NCBI GenBank assembly: GCA_019359395.1
Contig: JAHHHK010000010.1
Coordinates: forward strand, 175,894 to 234,328
From: Komarekiella atlantica HA4396-MV6
GTDB taxonomy: Bacteria; Cyanobacteriota; Cyanobacteriia; Cyanobacteriales; Nostocaceae
Length of the DNA: 58,435 bases
Direction of reading: 5' to 3'
Positions within the stretch are counted from its first letter, which is position 1; every line of letters starts with the position of its first letter. Under the pieces are notes generated by a model. The model was given only the letters and a program-made list of their open reading frames with translations. It made no database searches and was not told the origin of the DNA. This document shows, piece after piece, positions 7,908 through 58,435 of the stretch. Both the position numbers and the translations under genes were made by a program.

Positions 7908-8428
7908 TTTTTTGTAGCTTTAACCACAATTTGCAGCAATTTTGTCATCTTAACTCTGAACGATACCTAAATTAGAATCAATTTATACAGATTTTGTTTT
8001 CATAAACAGGCGTTACTAACTTTTAAGTTACAGAAGATTAAATTTGTTTGATTAATACAGCTAAAATGCTTACTAAGACTTGTTTGATATTTTATGTTTT
8101 TAATTTCTTATTGTTATTATAAGTTGTACTAATTTAAATAGTTAAAGCTCCCAAGTTCTGATTAACTTTGGGAGCTAATAATTTTGAGTTCACCGCGACG
8201 CCGTTTTACCTAAGTTTATGACCTGGTTAAACCAGGTGGGAACCTAAATTCCTCGTTTAAAGTTTCCGGGTACATGCCCGGTCTACTGCCACGAGAACAG
8301 TTGACTCCCTTGTCTTTAAAGGCATAGATCAAAAAACTTGATGGCAGTCACCAACGTCGTAGTGCAACTAACTCATTATAGCCTTCCAAAAGATGCTGTG
8401 TATTCCATATCGGAATTTTCTAGAAAAG
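7908..8428. other. 520-bp intergenic region with hairpins
   Basis: No gene seen. It contains a 12-bp hairpin (8146-8176, AGCTCCCAAGTT with a single bulged T in the other arm), ACCTGGTT-A-AACCAGGT (8222-8238), and CGGG-tacatg-CCCG nearby. These lie downstream of purK on the minus strand, but none has a clear T-tract. They could act as weak terminators or simply be repeats. Confidence 0.4.
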
Positions 8429-11239: not shown

Positions 11240-11630
11240 TTATTTTCCTTGTTTTTTTAAACCAAAAGATAAGCCAGGTGATTCTGGAATATTATTCAAT
11301 TCTTTACAATTAATAATATTCCAAGTTCCTCCTTCGTCATCAATAAAACTTACATAACTTTCAGGACTGACTCTATTTTCATGAATTCTTAAATTATTTA
11401 TGTCGCTGTAATACAATTGAACATGAGCATCATATGAAATAGATGGGTTTGTAAATGGAAGAAATGCTGGAGAGTAAATACGAAACCAAGAACAATTAAT
11501 TTTTGGGTGTGTATTTCCTGATTTTAGTATTACTTGAAGGGTTATATCTTTATAGTATCCTTTCAGAAAATGGCATACTTTACTGAAGGATATATTAGTT
11601 AATTGGCTGAAAGCCTTGCTATATGTAAAT
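11240..11630 (-). pseudogene. orphan reading frame without a normal start, downstream of tRNA-Val
   Basis: An open frame of about 130 codons ends at 11240. Its only ATG lies inside the tRNA-Val gene (its first residues are the translated tRNA), and no ATG, GTG or upstream TTG lies between the tRNA and the middle of the frame. The protein-like composition (FIDDEGGTWNIINCKEL near the end) suggests a real gene that lost its 5' end, possibly when DNA recombined at the tRNA. A very rare start codon or a random open frame are alternatives. Confidence 0.4.
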
Positions 11631-11701
11631 GGGCGATACTGGATTTGAACCAGTGACCCCATCCGTGTGAAGGATGTGCGCTACCACTGTGCTAATCGCC
11701 C
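11630..11701 (-). tRNA. tRNA-Val (anticodon CAC)
   Basis: On the minus strand the cloverleaf starts GGGCGAT and closes with ATCGCCC plus discriminator A. The anticodon stem CATCC/GGATG encloses the loop TTCACAC, giving anticodon CAC (Val, codon GUG). The T arm reads CTGG-TTCAAAT-CCAG. The D loop is short. CCA is not encoded. Confidence 0.95.
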
Positions 11702-16848: not shown

Positions 16849-16921
16849 GGGGGTTTAGCTCAGTTGGTAGAGCGCCTGCTTTGCAAGCAGGATGTCAGCG
16901 GTTCGAGTCCGCTAACCTCCA
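16849..16921 (+). tRNA. tRNA-Ala (anticodon TGC)
   Basis: Acceptor GGGGGTT pairs with AACCTCC (one G-T wobble), discriminator A. D arm is GCTC-AGTTGGTA-GAGC, the anticodon stem CCTGC/GCAGG holds loop TTTGCAA (anticodon TGC), and the T arm is CAGCG-GTTCGAGT-CCGCT-like. CCA is not encoded. The last 26 bases are repeated 261 bp downstream. Confidence 0.97.
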
Positions 16922-54477: not shown

Positions 54478-55446
54478 ATGAATAAAAATCAGCCACGACT
54501 AAGCATCGGATTACCTGTATACAATGGTGAAAAGTTTATCAAAGAAACCATAGATTCACTGTTGTCTCAAACCTTTGAAGATTTCGAGCTAATTATTTCA
54601 GATAACGCATCTACAGACAAGACTGAAGAAATTTGTAGAGCATACGTTGATCAAGACAAACGTATAAGCTACTACCGCAATGAAAAGAACATGGGTTGTG
54701 CTATTAACTTCAATCGTGTCTTTGAATTATCTTCAGGTGAGTACTTTAAGTGGGCAGCCTATGATGATTTATATGCTCCAGATTTTATCATGAAGTGTAT
54801 TGAGGTACTTGACCAAGATTCTAGCTTCATCTTGTGCCACTCCTATGCATATTTCATTGACGAATATGGGAAATTTATCCGAAACTACGATGTTCATCTG
54901 AAGACGGATTCACTAAAAAGACACGAGCGTTTTCACGAATTGCTGCATAAGCATTTATGTTATCAAATTTTCGGAGTAATCCGTGCTAGCGCTCTCAGGA
55001 AGATACCGCCTATGGGTGGTTACGGTCATACAGATGGAATTTTTTTGTTAAGACTTGGTCTTTTAGGTCGGTTTTATGAAATTCCCGAATATCTATTCTT
55101 TGCTAGAAAGCACCCACAACAATCAATGAGTATGTTCGTTGATGATTACTTGTTATTTGCTAACAAAAATCAAAAATACTCATTGAATATGATGCCTGAT
55201 TACTATGCATATTCTGTATGGTTCGATTCATCAAATGAAGGCAAAATTATGTTGCCTCATTGGAGAATATTCTGGGAGCATTTACTCTCTATGTGGCAAA
55301 GTTCCCTAAGCTTATATGAGTACGTTTACTGTTCTCGAAGTATGTATCAGCAGTTAAAAGGTACAGAGTATTTTTTACTGCAAGATTTGATTAGAGTCCT
55401 TCAAACACTTTGGCAACGTTGGCGAAAAGCATTAGTTGAAAGTTAG
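54478..55446 (+). CDS. glycosyltransferase family 2
   Basis: A 322-aa GT-A glycosyltransferase. LSIGLPVYNGEKFIKETIDSLL begins the fold (shown: GLPVYNGEKF, residues 10-19), ELIISDNASTD holds the first Asp, and the DxD-like AAYDDLYAPDF lies near residue 96. The C-terminal half is soluble, unlike the membrane enzyme at 46043, and contains HTDGIFLLRLGLLG with the probable acceptor-site Asp. It is a second glycosylation step for the island product or envelope polysaccharide. ATG 54478 follows family start; the TTG at 54460 is less likely. Confidence 0.9.
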   Translation: MNKNQPRLSIGLPVYNGEKFIKETIDSLLSQTFEDFELIISDNASTDKTEEICRAYVDQDKRISYYRNEKNMGCAINFNRVFELSSGEYFKWAAYDDLYAPDFIMKCIEVLDQDSSFILCHSYAYFIDEYGKFIRNYDVHLKTDSLKRHERFHELLHKHLCYQIFGVIRASALRKIPPMGGYGHTDGIFLLRLGLLGRFYEIPEYLFFARKHPQQSMSMFVDDYLLFANKNQKYSLNMMPDYYAYSVWFDSSNEGKIMLPHWRIFWEHLLSMWQSSLSLYEYVYCSRSMYQQLKGTEYFLLQDLIRVLQTLWQRWRKALVES

Positions 55447-55918
55447 TAACTCTCTTTTTTTTACAGTTTATGTATTTTTTTAGTATACCAGTTACAGGTT
55501 TAAGTTTTTCATTTATGACCGCCTGATGGATGCGGACGAGCGATCATCAAGACTGAATGTACAACATAATTAATCGCCACCTTATCCGCTTGATAGAAGT
55601 ACTTAAATCTGGCTGATTTTCGACCAGCAGAACTCTTATAACTACTCTAATTTGGATCTGGGCTATAGCCAGAGGATATCCGCTGCTATACCCAGACTTT
55701 ACGATCAAAAGAATCACATTTAAAGAAAATAAATATTACATCGTATTAGCGATCGCCTTCTGAACACTCCTTTGCTCCTTATATCTTTCTTAAAACTTTA
55801 TACTTCCGTGAAAACTGGTATAGTCCATATTTTTGCATGAATTTACACGTTGGTAAAAAAGTCAACCCTCTTAGGAGGTATTTAAAATTACAGATGTTGA
55901 AATTTTCAACTCTTTAAA
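55447..55918. other. spacer with one imperfect hairpin
   Basis: No gene seen. TCTGGGCTATAG and CTATACCCAGA (55657-55695) form an imperfect inverted repeat. It may stop transcription from the last island gene weakly. The region leads into the minus-strand small-RNA array. Confidence 0.35.
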
Positions 55919-55996
55919 TAAAAAGCCCCCAGTTAGTACTGGGGGTATGTATGGTCTATTACCATCAACATCTATTCCCATAAACAAGAATGGCAT
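55919..55996 (-). ncRNA. array unit U0 (terminator clear, promoter weak)
   Basis: On the minus strand CCCCCAGT-acta-ACTGGGGG (55926-55945) is followed by CTTTTTATTT, an excellent terminator. Only a weak CATCT-type start lies near 55994, so the 5' end is uncertain. It may be a diverged array unit or an independent small RNA. Confidence 0.4.
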
Positions 55997-56096
55997 CTCC
56001 AAGGCTTTGATGCATTCATTAAATGCAATAATTGCATAATTTTAATTCGTTTTTTGCAATCACTCCAAGTTGTCATTCTGAGCAAAGAGTTCGCAC

Positions 56097-56144
56097 AGCG
56101 TTCCACACGAAAGTATCTCACCAAATACTTTCGTGTGGAACGCT
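56097..56144. repeat. 20-bp perfect hairpin inside a dispersed repeat
   Basis: Arm 56097-56116 (AGCGTTCCACACGAAAGTAT) and its exact inverse 56125-56144 enclose 8 nt. Just left is GTCATTCTGAGC (56072-56083), as in the repeat at 3544. No coding content. Confidence 0.75.
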
Positions 56145-56459
56145 ACAGGCAGTTTGCTTGCCTAGTAAGCCTACACTTTGTTTCGTACTCTGCGGGAACC
56201 AAAGCGAACAGTATGACACAATAGCATCTTTGGCAACTTGGTGTTATGCAGAATCCTGGCAGCGAATTAATTCGCCTGCTCATTTCTTGTGTCAATGCAG
56301 AAGCTTCCAAAGCGAGGAGGTTTAGTAAGTAAATTGTTAGACAGTTATAGTTATTGGATAAGCTTTCCATCTGTTGAGTAAGAGATACATGCTGAGAATA
56401 GCAATGCTCATGCTAGAACTGATGAAAAACAGCTAGTAAGTAAACAAACGGCAATAGAT

Positions 56460-56547
56460 AAAAAAGCTGAAGCTGAGCGCTTAACCTCTAGAGATTCTAG
56501 TTATTTATGCAGACATCACAGCCTAATTTAAGCCTAATCTAACAATT
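56460..56547 (-). ncRNA. array unit Z
   Basis: A promoter-like CCTATATACAG near 56551-56560 (minus) is followed by a body of about 85 nt and T6 (56460-56465) after a short imperfect stem AAGC/GCTT. The terminator is eroded compared with the other units. Confidence 0.45.
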
Positions 56548-56610
56548 CATCTGTATATAGGCTGTTTCTAAAAATCCCGAAGGCTGATACAAAATTATTT
56601 GGTAAGTGAT

Positions 56611-56695
56611 AAAAAAGGCTTGACTGAGCCAAGCCTCTATATATACCAAGCATTTACTACACCATGATTAATTTAGACCTAGTCTTACTTTAGTT
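56611..56695 (-). ncRNA. array unit A
   Basis: Minus-strand TTTGGACACAGCCTATAGG (promoter-like, 56702-56720) leads to a predicted 85-nt RNA starting near GATGAAC and ending in AGGCTTG-gctcagt-CAAGCCT (56616-56636) plus TTTTTT. The segment GGTATATATAG before the terminator is shared with unit E. Confidence 0.6.
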
Positions 56696-56758
56696 CATCT
56701 TCCTATAGGCTGTGTCCAAATAATTTAAAAGCTGATATATGATCACTTTGTTAGATAT

Positions 56759-56846
56759 AAAAAAAGGTTTGGCTGTGAACCAAACCTCGATAATTGCTGT
56801 GCTTAACAACGTACTAAATTAATTTAATTTCACTTTACTTACATAT
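56759..56846 (-). ncRNA. array unit B
   Basis: Minus-strand TTTGAACACATCCTATAGG (56853-56871) precedes a predicted 88-nt RNA ending in AGGTTTGG-ttcacag-CCAAACCT (56765-56787) and seven T. An upstream TATCAG block is shared with units A and Z. Confidence 0.6.
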
Positions 56847-56988
56847 CATCTTCCTATAGGATGTGTTCAAATATTCTAAAAACTGATAAAAAATTTAGCA
56901 ACTTTATCTAATTTTCAAAATCCAAAAGTTCAGATTTCCGATTTATTAGAGAAGTCGGAAATCTCGTTGTTCACGCGATGTACCTAAT

Positions 56989-57075
56989 AAAAAAGACCCT
57001 GGGTATTATTCCAGGGTGCACACACGTTTTTCAGGCATTAACAGGCTGAATTTTAACTTGATCAAATAGTTATTT
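56989..57075 (-). ncRNA. array unit C
   Basis: Minus-strand TTTGTATCATTCTATGGG (promoter-like, weaker) precedes about 87 nt ending in ACCCTGG-aataatac-CCAGGGT (56996-57017) plus CTTTTTT. Promoter match is the poorest of the clear units. Confidence 0.5.
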
Positions 57076-57150
57076 CCACTACCCATAGAATGATACAAAT
57101 ATCTAAATGTATATGGTATGAAAGCGCCTGAGTTAGGTGGTCTATCCATG

Positions 57151-57224
57151 AAAAAAGCTAATGTAAATCATAAATTCTTGCTTGTAGTATTTTTTGATAC
57201 TAACTAATTCATTTTTTCTAAAAT
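57151..57224 (-). ncRNA. array unit D (degenerate)
   Basis: A diverged promoter motif (minus ATTGAAACACCTACCAG, near 57235-57250) and a T6 at 57151-57156 lie about 75 bp apart, but no G/C hairpin remains. It looks like a dying copy. Confidence 0.25.
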
Positions 57225-57348
57225 ATCTACTTCTGGTAGGTGTTTCAATAATTTACAAATTAATAAATAACTAGCTGATTATTGAGAGTTATAATCTTTG
57301 ATTATAAAACTAGAATTTTAATTATCTATTTTGCTTATTATTGCTTAC

Positions 57349-57434
57349 AAAAAAGGCGTGGCTTTTAGCCACGCCCCTATATATACCAAGTGTTTACCAT
57401 ATATATATAATTTAGATTTTCTCCTACTTTAGTT
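57349..57434 (-). ncRNA. array unit E
   Basis: Minus-strand TTTGGAACCACTCTATAGG (57441-57459) precedes about 86 nt ending in GGCGTGGCT-aaa-AGCCACGCC (57355-57375) and TTTTTT, the strongest stem of the array. The body shares CTTGGTATATATAGG with unit A. Confidence 0.6.
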
Positions 57435-57699
57435 CATCTACCTATAGAGTGGTTCCAAATACCTTATCAGCTGTTAAGCGAATATTGAGGAATCAAACTA
57501 ATTATAACTTGACCAATAATATTCTAAAGTAGCTATGATGCTAAAGTCGAGCTACGCTATCTCAAGCTCGGCTAAGCTTTTGAGCCGCAGCAGGCTTAGT
57601 TTGTGTAAGTTAGTTGCGTTAACTACTCATCTATCTACCATTAGAGAGCATGCAAACATTTTTAAAGCTAGTAAACCATAAGTCTGTCATATCAGTCAT

Positions 57700-57786
57700 A
57701 AAAAAGGCTTAGCTGAAAGCTAAACCTCCATAGAAAGCAGTTATTCGACACACCAGGATTAATTTATATCTACTCTTACTTTTGGT
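57700..57786 (-). ncRNA. array unit F (first in transcription order)
   Basis: Minus-strand TTAGACACATCCTAGAGG (57792-57809) precedes about 87 nt ending in AGGTTTAGCT-ttc-AGCTAAGCCT (57705-57727, one U-G pair) and T6. It is the rightmost unit seen. Confidence 0.6.
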
Positions 57787-57829
57787 CATCTTCCTCTAGG
57801 ATGTGTCTAATAGTTATGAAATTTGGTAG

Positions 57830-58313
57830 AAGCTTAACCATTTAAAGTAACGAGTAATTAAACTACCTTTGGAGAGATTAAAAGCTAAAAATATTAAATA
57901 AAATATAAAAATTCTTACTAAGCAAAATTTCAGCTAAGTGTTGACCTTTAGAATACTTGTGCGTGCAGGAGTACTCATATTGCTGCACTCGATTCAGTAG
58001 TCTTATATAGCATTTCCTAGTCGTCTGAAGTACAAATTTATGGGTGTTTATCTGTCTTGAAAAGTTTCCTGCCCAGGGTTGCCCTAAGCGAAGTTTGCTT
58101 GGAGGGAAACCCTCCGACGCTCGATGACTCGCTCTAAGCGTAGTCATGCCGTAGGCTTTACGCTGCGCTATGGCAACTTCTCTCCGCAGAACTTTTCGCT
58201 GTCTTGAAAAGTTTTGCGCTCCTGTTACCCGGAGCTTCGCTTACTTTTCGCTGTGGTTAATTACAACTTCTGTATACCTCACTTAAGCGAGAACCGCTAT
58301 ATTACTTGCCTTA
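57830..58313. other. repeat-rich spacer before the IS
   Basis: No credible gene (an 89-codon frame is made of repeats). It contains GGAGGG-aaa-CCCTCC (58101-58115), palindromic GTAGTCATGCC/GCTTTACGC stretches and two copies of CTTGAAAAGTTT (near 58058 and 58204). Confidence 0.45.
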
Positions 58314-58435
58314 GAGGCTGTTTGAAAAGTCAGATAGGTGGTAAAAAAGCTCTCTCGGTATACGCTGTGAATAGATAGTAAACAGCACCGAAAGAGCAAC
58401 ATGAGTAAAGCATACCCCAGCAATTTGACCCGCGA
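58314..58435 (+). mobile_element. left end of an IS5-like insertion sequence (cut by window)
   Basis: GAGGCTGTTTGAAAAGTC at 58314-58331 looks like the terminal inverted repeat of IS5/IS1031-type elements of cyanobacteria. The transposase start follows at 58401. The right end and target duplication are outside the window. Confidence 0.7.
58401..58435 (+). CDS. IS5-family transposase, first 11 codons
   Basis: ATG at 58401 opens MSKAYPSNLTR, a start well known in cyanobacterial IS5-type transposases, and the frame runs off the window. GAAAGAGCAAC is upstream. No catalytic residues are visible yet. Confidence 0.7.
   Translation, partial: MSKAYPSNLTR

Follow-up and report, generated by a model that had tools for sequence, protein, structure and literature searches.

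Our data indicate that the minus-strand, small-RNA-type array at the end of this Komarekiella atlantica contig is real and well beyond chance. We propose, with a probability of roughly 70%, that it consists of tandem, independent small RNA (sRNA) genes of approximately 55 nt, each with its own promoter and terminator, which would be activated together with the RNA of Rfam family RF02596 and would pair in trans with mRNA targets of their own. This proposal is built on features read from the sequences: the units, their fixed promoter geometry, compensatory changes in the terminator stems, cores conserved within each unit type, and a single order of the types across genera.

Five tandem units on the minus strand

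The window, i.e., the whole 58,435-nucleotide stretch of DNA analyzed here, corresponds to C77:175894-234328 of the 7.78-Mb genome, and its right end is the contig end. We found five clear units on the minus strand at 56459-57820, in the transcription order A, B, C, D, E2 (Table 1). Each unit consists of a promoter box, a variable spacer, TAAATT or a near match, a core of approximately 30 nt, a hairpin, and then a T-tract. We derived a profile from 277 units at other loci, leaving out the window and its closest relatives, and it matched all five units with E-values from 8.8e-30 to 3.4e-11 (38.5 to 98.7 bits). A sister profile that includes the window units was run on 100 first-order Markov simulations of the window, where its best chance match scored 12.9 bits. 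The 15-mer CCTATAGGAAGATGA occurs six times in the window when up to three mismatches are allowed, and five of these occurrences are at the five units; shuffled windows contain 1.5 on average, and 2 of 100 shuffles reached six. The 20-mer CACATCCTATAGGAAGATGA, again with up to three mismatches, occurs four times in the entire 7.78-Mb genome, namely in units A, C, and D and in the canonical RF02596 gene. The held-out profile and the box counts uphold the first-pass annotation in its description of a minus-strand tandem array of small-RNA-like units. The constant spacing of 85-88 bp to the T-tract that it reported was likewise recovered, measured from AAGATGA in the five units, and in all of them the 25-bp box begins 103-106 nt ahead of the T-tract. 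It had counted six clear and two weak units; five clear units stand, the sixth does not, and we find two or three that look decayed.

The far end of the interval first assigned to the array (55918-55964) holds a terminator without an upstream box. Between this terminator and the array, at 56099-56142, lies a 20-bp hairpin with near-perfect arms that matches a plant miRNA model below its cut-off. Elsewhere, the window contains a 6S RNA (8186-8368, minus strand, 108.1 bits) and two tRNA genes (11630-11701, minus strand; 16849-16921, plus strand).

Table 1. Predicted sRNAs, promoter boxes, and possible remnants of units in the array, in transcription order (window positions)
Feature	Position	Strand	Evidence
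Promoter box of unit A	57786..57810	-	2 mismatches to 25-mer TTGGACACATCCTATAGGAAGATGA
Predicted sRNA A: core GGTGTGTCGAATAACTGCTTTCTAT and terminator	57702..57756	-	Profile match 57697-57820, E 3e-27
Possible decayed unit, type G place	57562..57665	-	Not significant alone, E 0.33-7.2; place judged from relatives
Promoter box of unit B	57434..57458	-	5 mismatches to 25-mer TTGGACACATCCTATAGGAAGATGA
Predicted sRNA B: core ATATGGTAAACACTTGGTATAT and terminator	57351..57406	-	Profile match 57347-57464, E 8.6e-26
Possible decayed unit between B and C	57180..57250	-	By eye, against an untyped unit of a relative's locus (L120); no profile match
Doubtful diverged unit	56985..57112	-	Weak box and intrinsic terminator 57017-56996; no profile match
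Promoter box of unit C	56846..56870	-	1 mismatch to 25-mer TTGGACACATCCTATAGGAAGATGA
Predicted sRNA C: core TAGTACGTTGTTAAGCACAGCAATTAT and terminator	56762..56817	-	Profile match 56759-56881, E 4.3e-27; RF02596 36.4 bits, cut-off 35.7
Promoter box of unit D	56695..56719	-	1 mismatch to 25-mer TTGGACACATCCTATAGGAAGATGA
Predicted sRNA D: core TGGTGTAGTAAATGCTTGGTATATATA and terminator	56613..56665	-	Profile match 56609-56730, E 8.8e-30
Promoter box of unit E2	56547..56571	-	6 mismatches to 25-mer TTGGACACATCCTATAGGAAGATGA
Predicted sRNA E2 (type E variant), weakest unit	56462..56519	-	Profile match 56459-56580, E 3.4e-11

The array is distinct from NsiR1

NsiR1, whose expression is HetR-dependent and heterocyst-specific, has been studied more closely than any other multicopy sRNA involved in heterocyst development. 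Like NsiR1, the array is a tandem series of short sRNA genes in heterocystous cyanobacteria, each gene with a promoter and terminator of its own; this likeness would fit the array being this genome's NsiR1 locus or a diverged copy. A weak match to the Rfam NsiR1 model (RF02399) points the same way. This match, of 21.5 bits (cut-off 39), lies on the 55918-55964 terminator outside the units and is the sole one in 55400-58435 at E-values up to 5; the first-pass annotation had called the array probably NsiR1-like, and the model matched none of its units. Seven RF02399 matches exceed the cut-off in this genome, all of them on other contigs, and six are in tandem at C2:121628-122946. These six copies adjoin a gene on the opposite strand that is transcribed away from them. 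It encodes 855 aa, of which 832 align with NCBIfam CellDiv_HetF (1491.9 bits, cut-off 1200), and it also matches Pfam CHAT. The first-pass annotation had proposed looking for hetF to the right of the window; the HetF gene of this genome adjoins the RF02399 array on C2. According to passages of one report on Nostoc PCC 7120, the first NsiR1 copy there is antisense to the hetF leader (PMC9045159), the same layout as on C2.

Passages of a second report give NsiR1 the DIF1 promoter motif TCCGGA at -35 (PMC6133370). This motif was found in the -35 stretch of none of the 308 array units with a recognized -10, even allowing one mismatch, and the window array contains no exact TCCGGA. Furthermore, the six NsiR1 copies on C2 are 0.86 alike, whereas array types are 0.46 alike in their cores. 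We therefore reject NsiR1 identity on the RF02399 search, the HetF-adjacent array on C2, and the lack of DIF1 in 308 units, and consider it extremely improbable that the array is the NsiR1 array or its diverged copy, although the two may have a remote common ancestor. The other half of the original inference, a related new small-RNA array with differing unit bodies, fits our data. The array thus differs from NsiR1 in sequence, promoter motif, and place, and its types are unlike one another while NsiR1 copies are largely alike; NsiR1 sibling copies with different targets are described in PMC9045159.

Identity with NsiR9 was likewise not supported, since the 122 nt reported for that RNA (PMC4734099) do not fit units of approximately 55 nt. 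Three tandem NsiR1 matches below the cut-off (32.6-35.8 bits) at G000:C56:192875-193240, apart from the hetF array, may be a second, diverged NsiR1 array. A lone NsiR1 match above the cut-off (51.5 bits) with TCCGGA nearby lies at G000:C78:175253-175303, away from hetF.

Relation to RF02596

The nearest described RNA to the array is RF02596 (cyano_het_sRNA, Rfam 15), a family whose name implies small-RNA expression in heterocysts. Unit C just passes the cut-off of this model, units B, A, and D score 24.4-26.4 bits (25.6 for A and 24.4 for D) and fall below it, and E2 is unlisted. Scores of 24-26 bits are near chance, as matches below the cut-off at E-values up to 1 were found in 7 of 14 control genomes. 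In this genome, the canonical RF02596 gene occurs once, at C9:28847-28903 (71.6 bits), and has the same box as the array. This box, which was found here and lies outside the Rfam model, is present in all five window units. It also precedes the RNA in all 31 canonical RF02596 loci examined, starting 57 nt before it (58 in one case) and differing at 0-6 of 26 positions. This set, made up of the copy of this genome and the 30 best-scoring loci of the family search, is not a random sample.

The array and RF02596 therefore share a similar length and layout, the promoter box, and a core related to that of unit C. They differ in that the canonical RNA is a single copy while the array comprises several types, of which one barely passes the cut-off. 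We take the two, from these sequence likenesses, as one paralogous family with one promoter type. RF02596 as modelled would then cover only part of a larger paralogous family.

Distribution and fixed order of unit types

An exact scan of genome contigs for the type C core returned 66 stretches. Their named hosts are Nostoc, Anabaena, Dolichospermum, Aphanizomenon, Nodularia, Cylindrospermum, Calothrix, Tolypothrix, and relatives, together with some uncultured MAGs; the eight named genera are heterocyst formers. With up to two mismatches, the 22-mer core of type C is present in 106 of 217 Nostocaceae genomes (99 exact, 7 with one or two mismatches). Allowing three mismatches raises this to 118, although the 12 genomes gained only at that level are perhaps background. 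RF02596 exceeds its cut-off in 130 of the 217 genomes, including 105 of the 106 with type C and 25 without it, and NsiR1 is present in all 217. The array is confined to part of the Nostocaceae, nearly nested within the range of RF02596. Since 111 of the 217 genomes have no type C core at up to two mismatches though all have NsiR1, the array is not needed for heterocyst formation generally if those genomes are heterocystous, as their NsiR1 suggests.

Across 66 named and 18 unnamed loci, whose genomes overlap, the profile found 368 unit matches at E < 0.05. Typing was performed on 322 distinct sequences, with duplicates removed by sequence such that the counts refer to sequences rather than genomes: C 76, A 49, B 47, B' 47, D 42, E 21, and G 15, followed by the rarer I (5), E2 (4), and F (1), and 15 untyped units, four of which are A units with one inserted base. 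Relatives contain up to seven unit types in the one order. Indeed, in the 78 array loci that remained after removal of duplicates, the order A-G-B-B'-C-D-E is never broken by typed units, even though some members are missing. Type I sits in the place of B and E2 in the place of E, and in three loci a second B-typed unit occupies the B' place. Cores of the same type are similar between genomes, with mean identities from 0.77 (E) to 0.94 (C), while cores of different types within one genome share 0.46 (386 pairs; shuffled baseline 0.38), the opposite of the largely alike NsiR1 copies.

Conservation and structure of the units

Types A, B, B', C, and D are almost invariant in three regions: the -10 (0.95-0.99 identity), the core (0.92-0.97), and the 5' terminator arm (0.90-1.0). 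Their box is intermediate (0.81-0.88), and much more variation is seen in the spacer (0.57-0.79), the loop of the terminator (0.50-0.70), and the flank upstream (0.53-0.68). The cores of types E and G are looser, at 0.85 and 0.83, respectively. For sRNA A, the alignment comprised 33 orthologs. A fixed core, -10, and terminator arm beside a drifting spacer and loop is what a promoter with a functional RNA would show.

The terminator stems vary in sequence and retain their pairing, as first noted from the window alone. Between types, in 15 sequences hand-picked across them, 98.5% of cells are paired and 16 cells are double-changed, with double changes in five pairs; none of 500 shuffles equalled this. 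Within B and B' (42 units), 94.7% of cells are paired with 16 double changes, a level that 0 of 500 shuffles reached, although 68 of 500 matched the number of pairs with a double change (three). The predicted 5' hairpin of B and B' has no covariation support, with 83.3% of cells paired compared to 84.1% in shuffles. Most predicted folds contain two hairpins. Unit B folds with a z-score of -5.95, and of the five window units E2 has a fold no better than that of shuffles (z 0.55).

These patterns bear on whether the units could be a decaying interspersed repeat without function. The units are multicopy and intergenic, and the window holds two or three degenerate copies, as such a repeat would. 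A fixed order across genera, cores that are kept while spacers and loops drift, and a 20-mer box found only four times in the genome all argue against this, and we consider it very improbable.

Neighboring genes and target searches

Flanking genes vary among the 78 loci, and none is common to most, in a survey of loci of up to approximately 8 kb with flanks cut at the locus ends. The commonest flanking group, a kinase-like family on either side, occurs at only 27 of 78 loci, which rules out a conserved neighbor gene; the most consistent neighbor is an agmatinase-like gene downstream at 11 of 78 (both named by reading sequences). In the window, the nearest gene left of the array is a glycosyltransferase pointing towards it. 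The array behaves as a self-contained unit.

For cores C, D, F, and A, we searched 10, 8, 12, and 10 genomes, respectively, for antisense 16-mers with up to two mismatches, a search that would miss short or gapped pairing, and found no site kept in most of the genomes searched. Matches, own RNA genes included, numbered 47 for C, 77 for D, 39 for F, and 56 for A, and 30 loci were retrieved for each core. Some match strings recur in two or three genomes, and one such pair is inside a coding gene. Ten of 78 non-self matches lie near a possible same-strand start codon, by a loose definition of the start and without a control. A 19-nt complement in G073 was rejected, being inside an ABC permease-like gene and probably due to chance.

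A stretch of 16 nt perfectly complementary to the core of canonical RF02596 lies at G156:C1:1502097-1502112 on the minus strand (L260, position ~1516), approximately 30 nt before a transporter gene. This gene, which we take to be NrtA-like, has a weak SsuA-family match and is directly downstream of nirA (ferredoxin-nitrite reductase). None of the other 11 genomes searched has a counterpart with up to two mismatches at that gene; the complement is therefore not counted as a target and is perhaps due to chance.

Proposed function

We hypothesize that one activator binds the box and would switch on the array together with the single-copy RF02596 RNA, since a shared box suggests activation by one factor. 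Each array RNA would then act in trans, its core pairing with its own mRNA targets, and one signal would thereby be fanned out to several targets. Unlike but conserved cores suggest pairing with different mRNAs, and it is plausible that the cores differ enough for this. As for timing and cell type, we can only guess, by analogy with NsiR1, at nitrogen step-down or heterocyst development.

Alternatively, the RNAs might titrate a common RNA-binding protein instead of pairing with mRNAs, as CsrB and RsmY do. Many copies under one promoter type, two hairpins in most predicted folds, and loop-like strings such as TAA(G/A)CAC that are common to several types by eye are all consistent with titration. 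Cores as unlike as those of different types are, however, ill suited to one common protein site, and the 5' hairpin predicted for B lacks covariation. We thus consider titration unlikely and favor pairing of each RNA with its own targets.

Tandem sibling sRNAs are already known, NsiR1 being the local example, and several related sRNA genes per genome are also found among LhrC and other sibling or multicopy sRNAs. Those siblings are mostly a few similar copies, whereas here there are five to seven types with unlike cores in one order across genera. In a literature search of titles, the beginnings of abstracts, and passages, with key subscription papers outside its reach, we recognized no description of the array. 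As far as that literature shows, a fixed-order set of diverged, individually conserved sibling sRNAs with its own promoter type is undescribed. The organisms that have NsiR1 would here carry a second sRNA array, independent of the first and more diversified, whose promoter type is its own and whose paralogs form a natural series for testing how duplicated sRNAs gain separate targets. We put forward, more tentatively, that an undescribed Nostocaceae regulator may switch on, through one box of approximately 44 bp, six to eight paralogous sRNAs (the RF02596 gene and the array with its fixed order), each with a strongly conserved core and its own target set. Such a one-signal, many-target RNA regulon might have arisen by tandem duplication followed by specialization rather than homogenization.

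The promoter box and its possible wider use

The putative promoter comprises an upstream element, TATCAG..TTT..TTTGGACACA-CCTATAGG-AGATGA, and a TAAATT -10. Of 319 distinct units, 272 have TAAATT at a distance of 34 nt from CCTATAGG, and 16 have it at 35 nt. The element extends upstream, with the CA of TATCAG 25 nt before CCTATAGG in 268 of 318 units and the full CAG in 153. A promoter scanner reported none of the five units' own promoters, and terminators were reported for one of the five.

The box also contains AGGAAGATGA, which resembles a ribosome site with an ATG, and could therefore be read as the start of very short peptides encoded by the units. Frames from this ATG end at many lengths, however, for example after 2 codons in 84 units and 11 in 45, with 44 open to the unit end, and the ATG is upstream of the -10. 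The ATG heads no conserved reading frame, and we regard peptide coding as the least probable of the alternatives.

The pattern TAGRNAGATG-N17-20-TAAATT occurs at 35 places in 13 of 15 genomes, 26 of them within approximately 2 kb of a type C core and 9 elsewhere. Since the reversed-pattern control gave 2 places compared to these 9, the promoter may not be private to the array RNAs. Among these nine, two pairs of similar matches lie far from the arrays in two genomes of the same genus (G045:C1:114699 with G049:C1:3022867, and G045:C1:5015425 with G049:C1:3889362) and possibly mark further genes under the same box.
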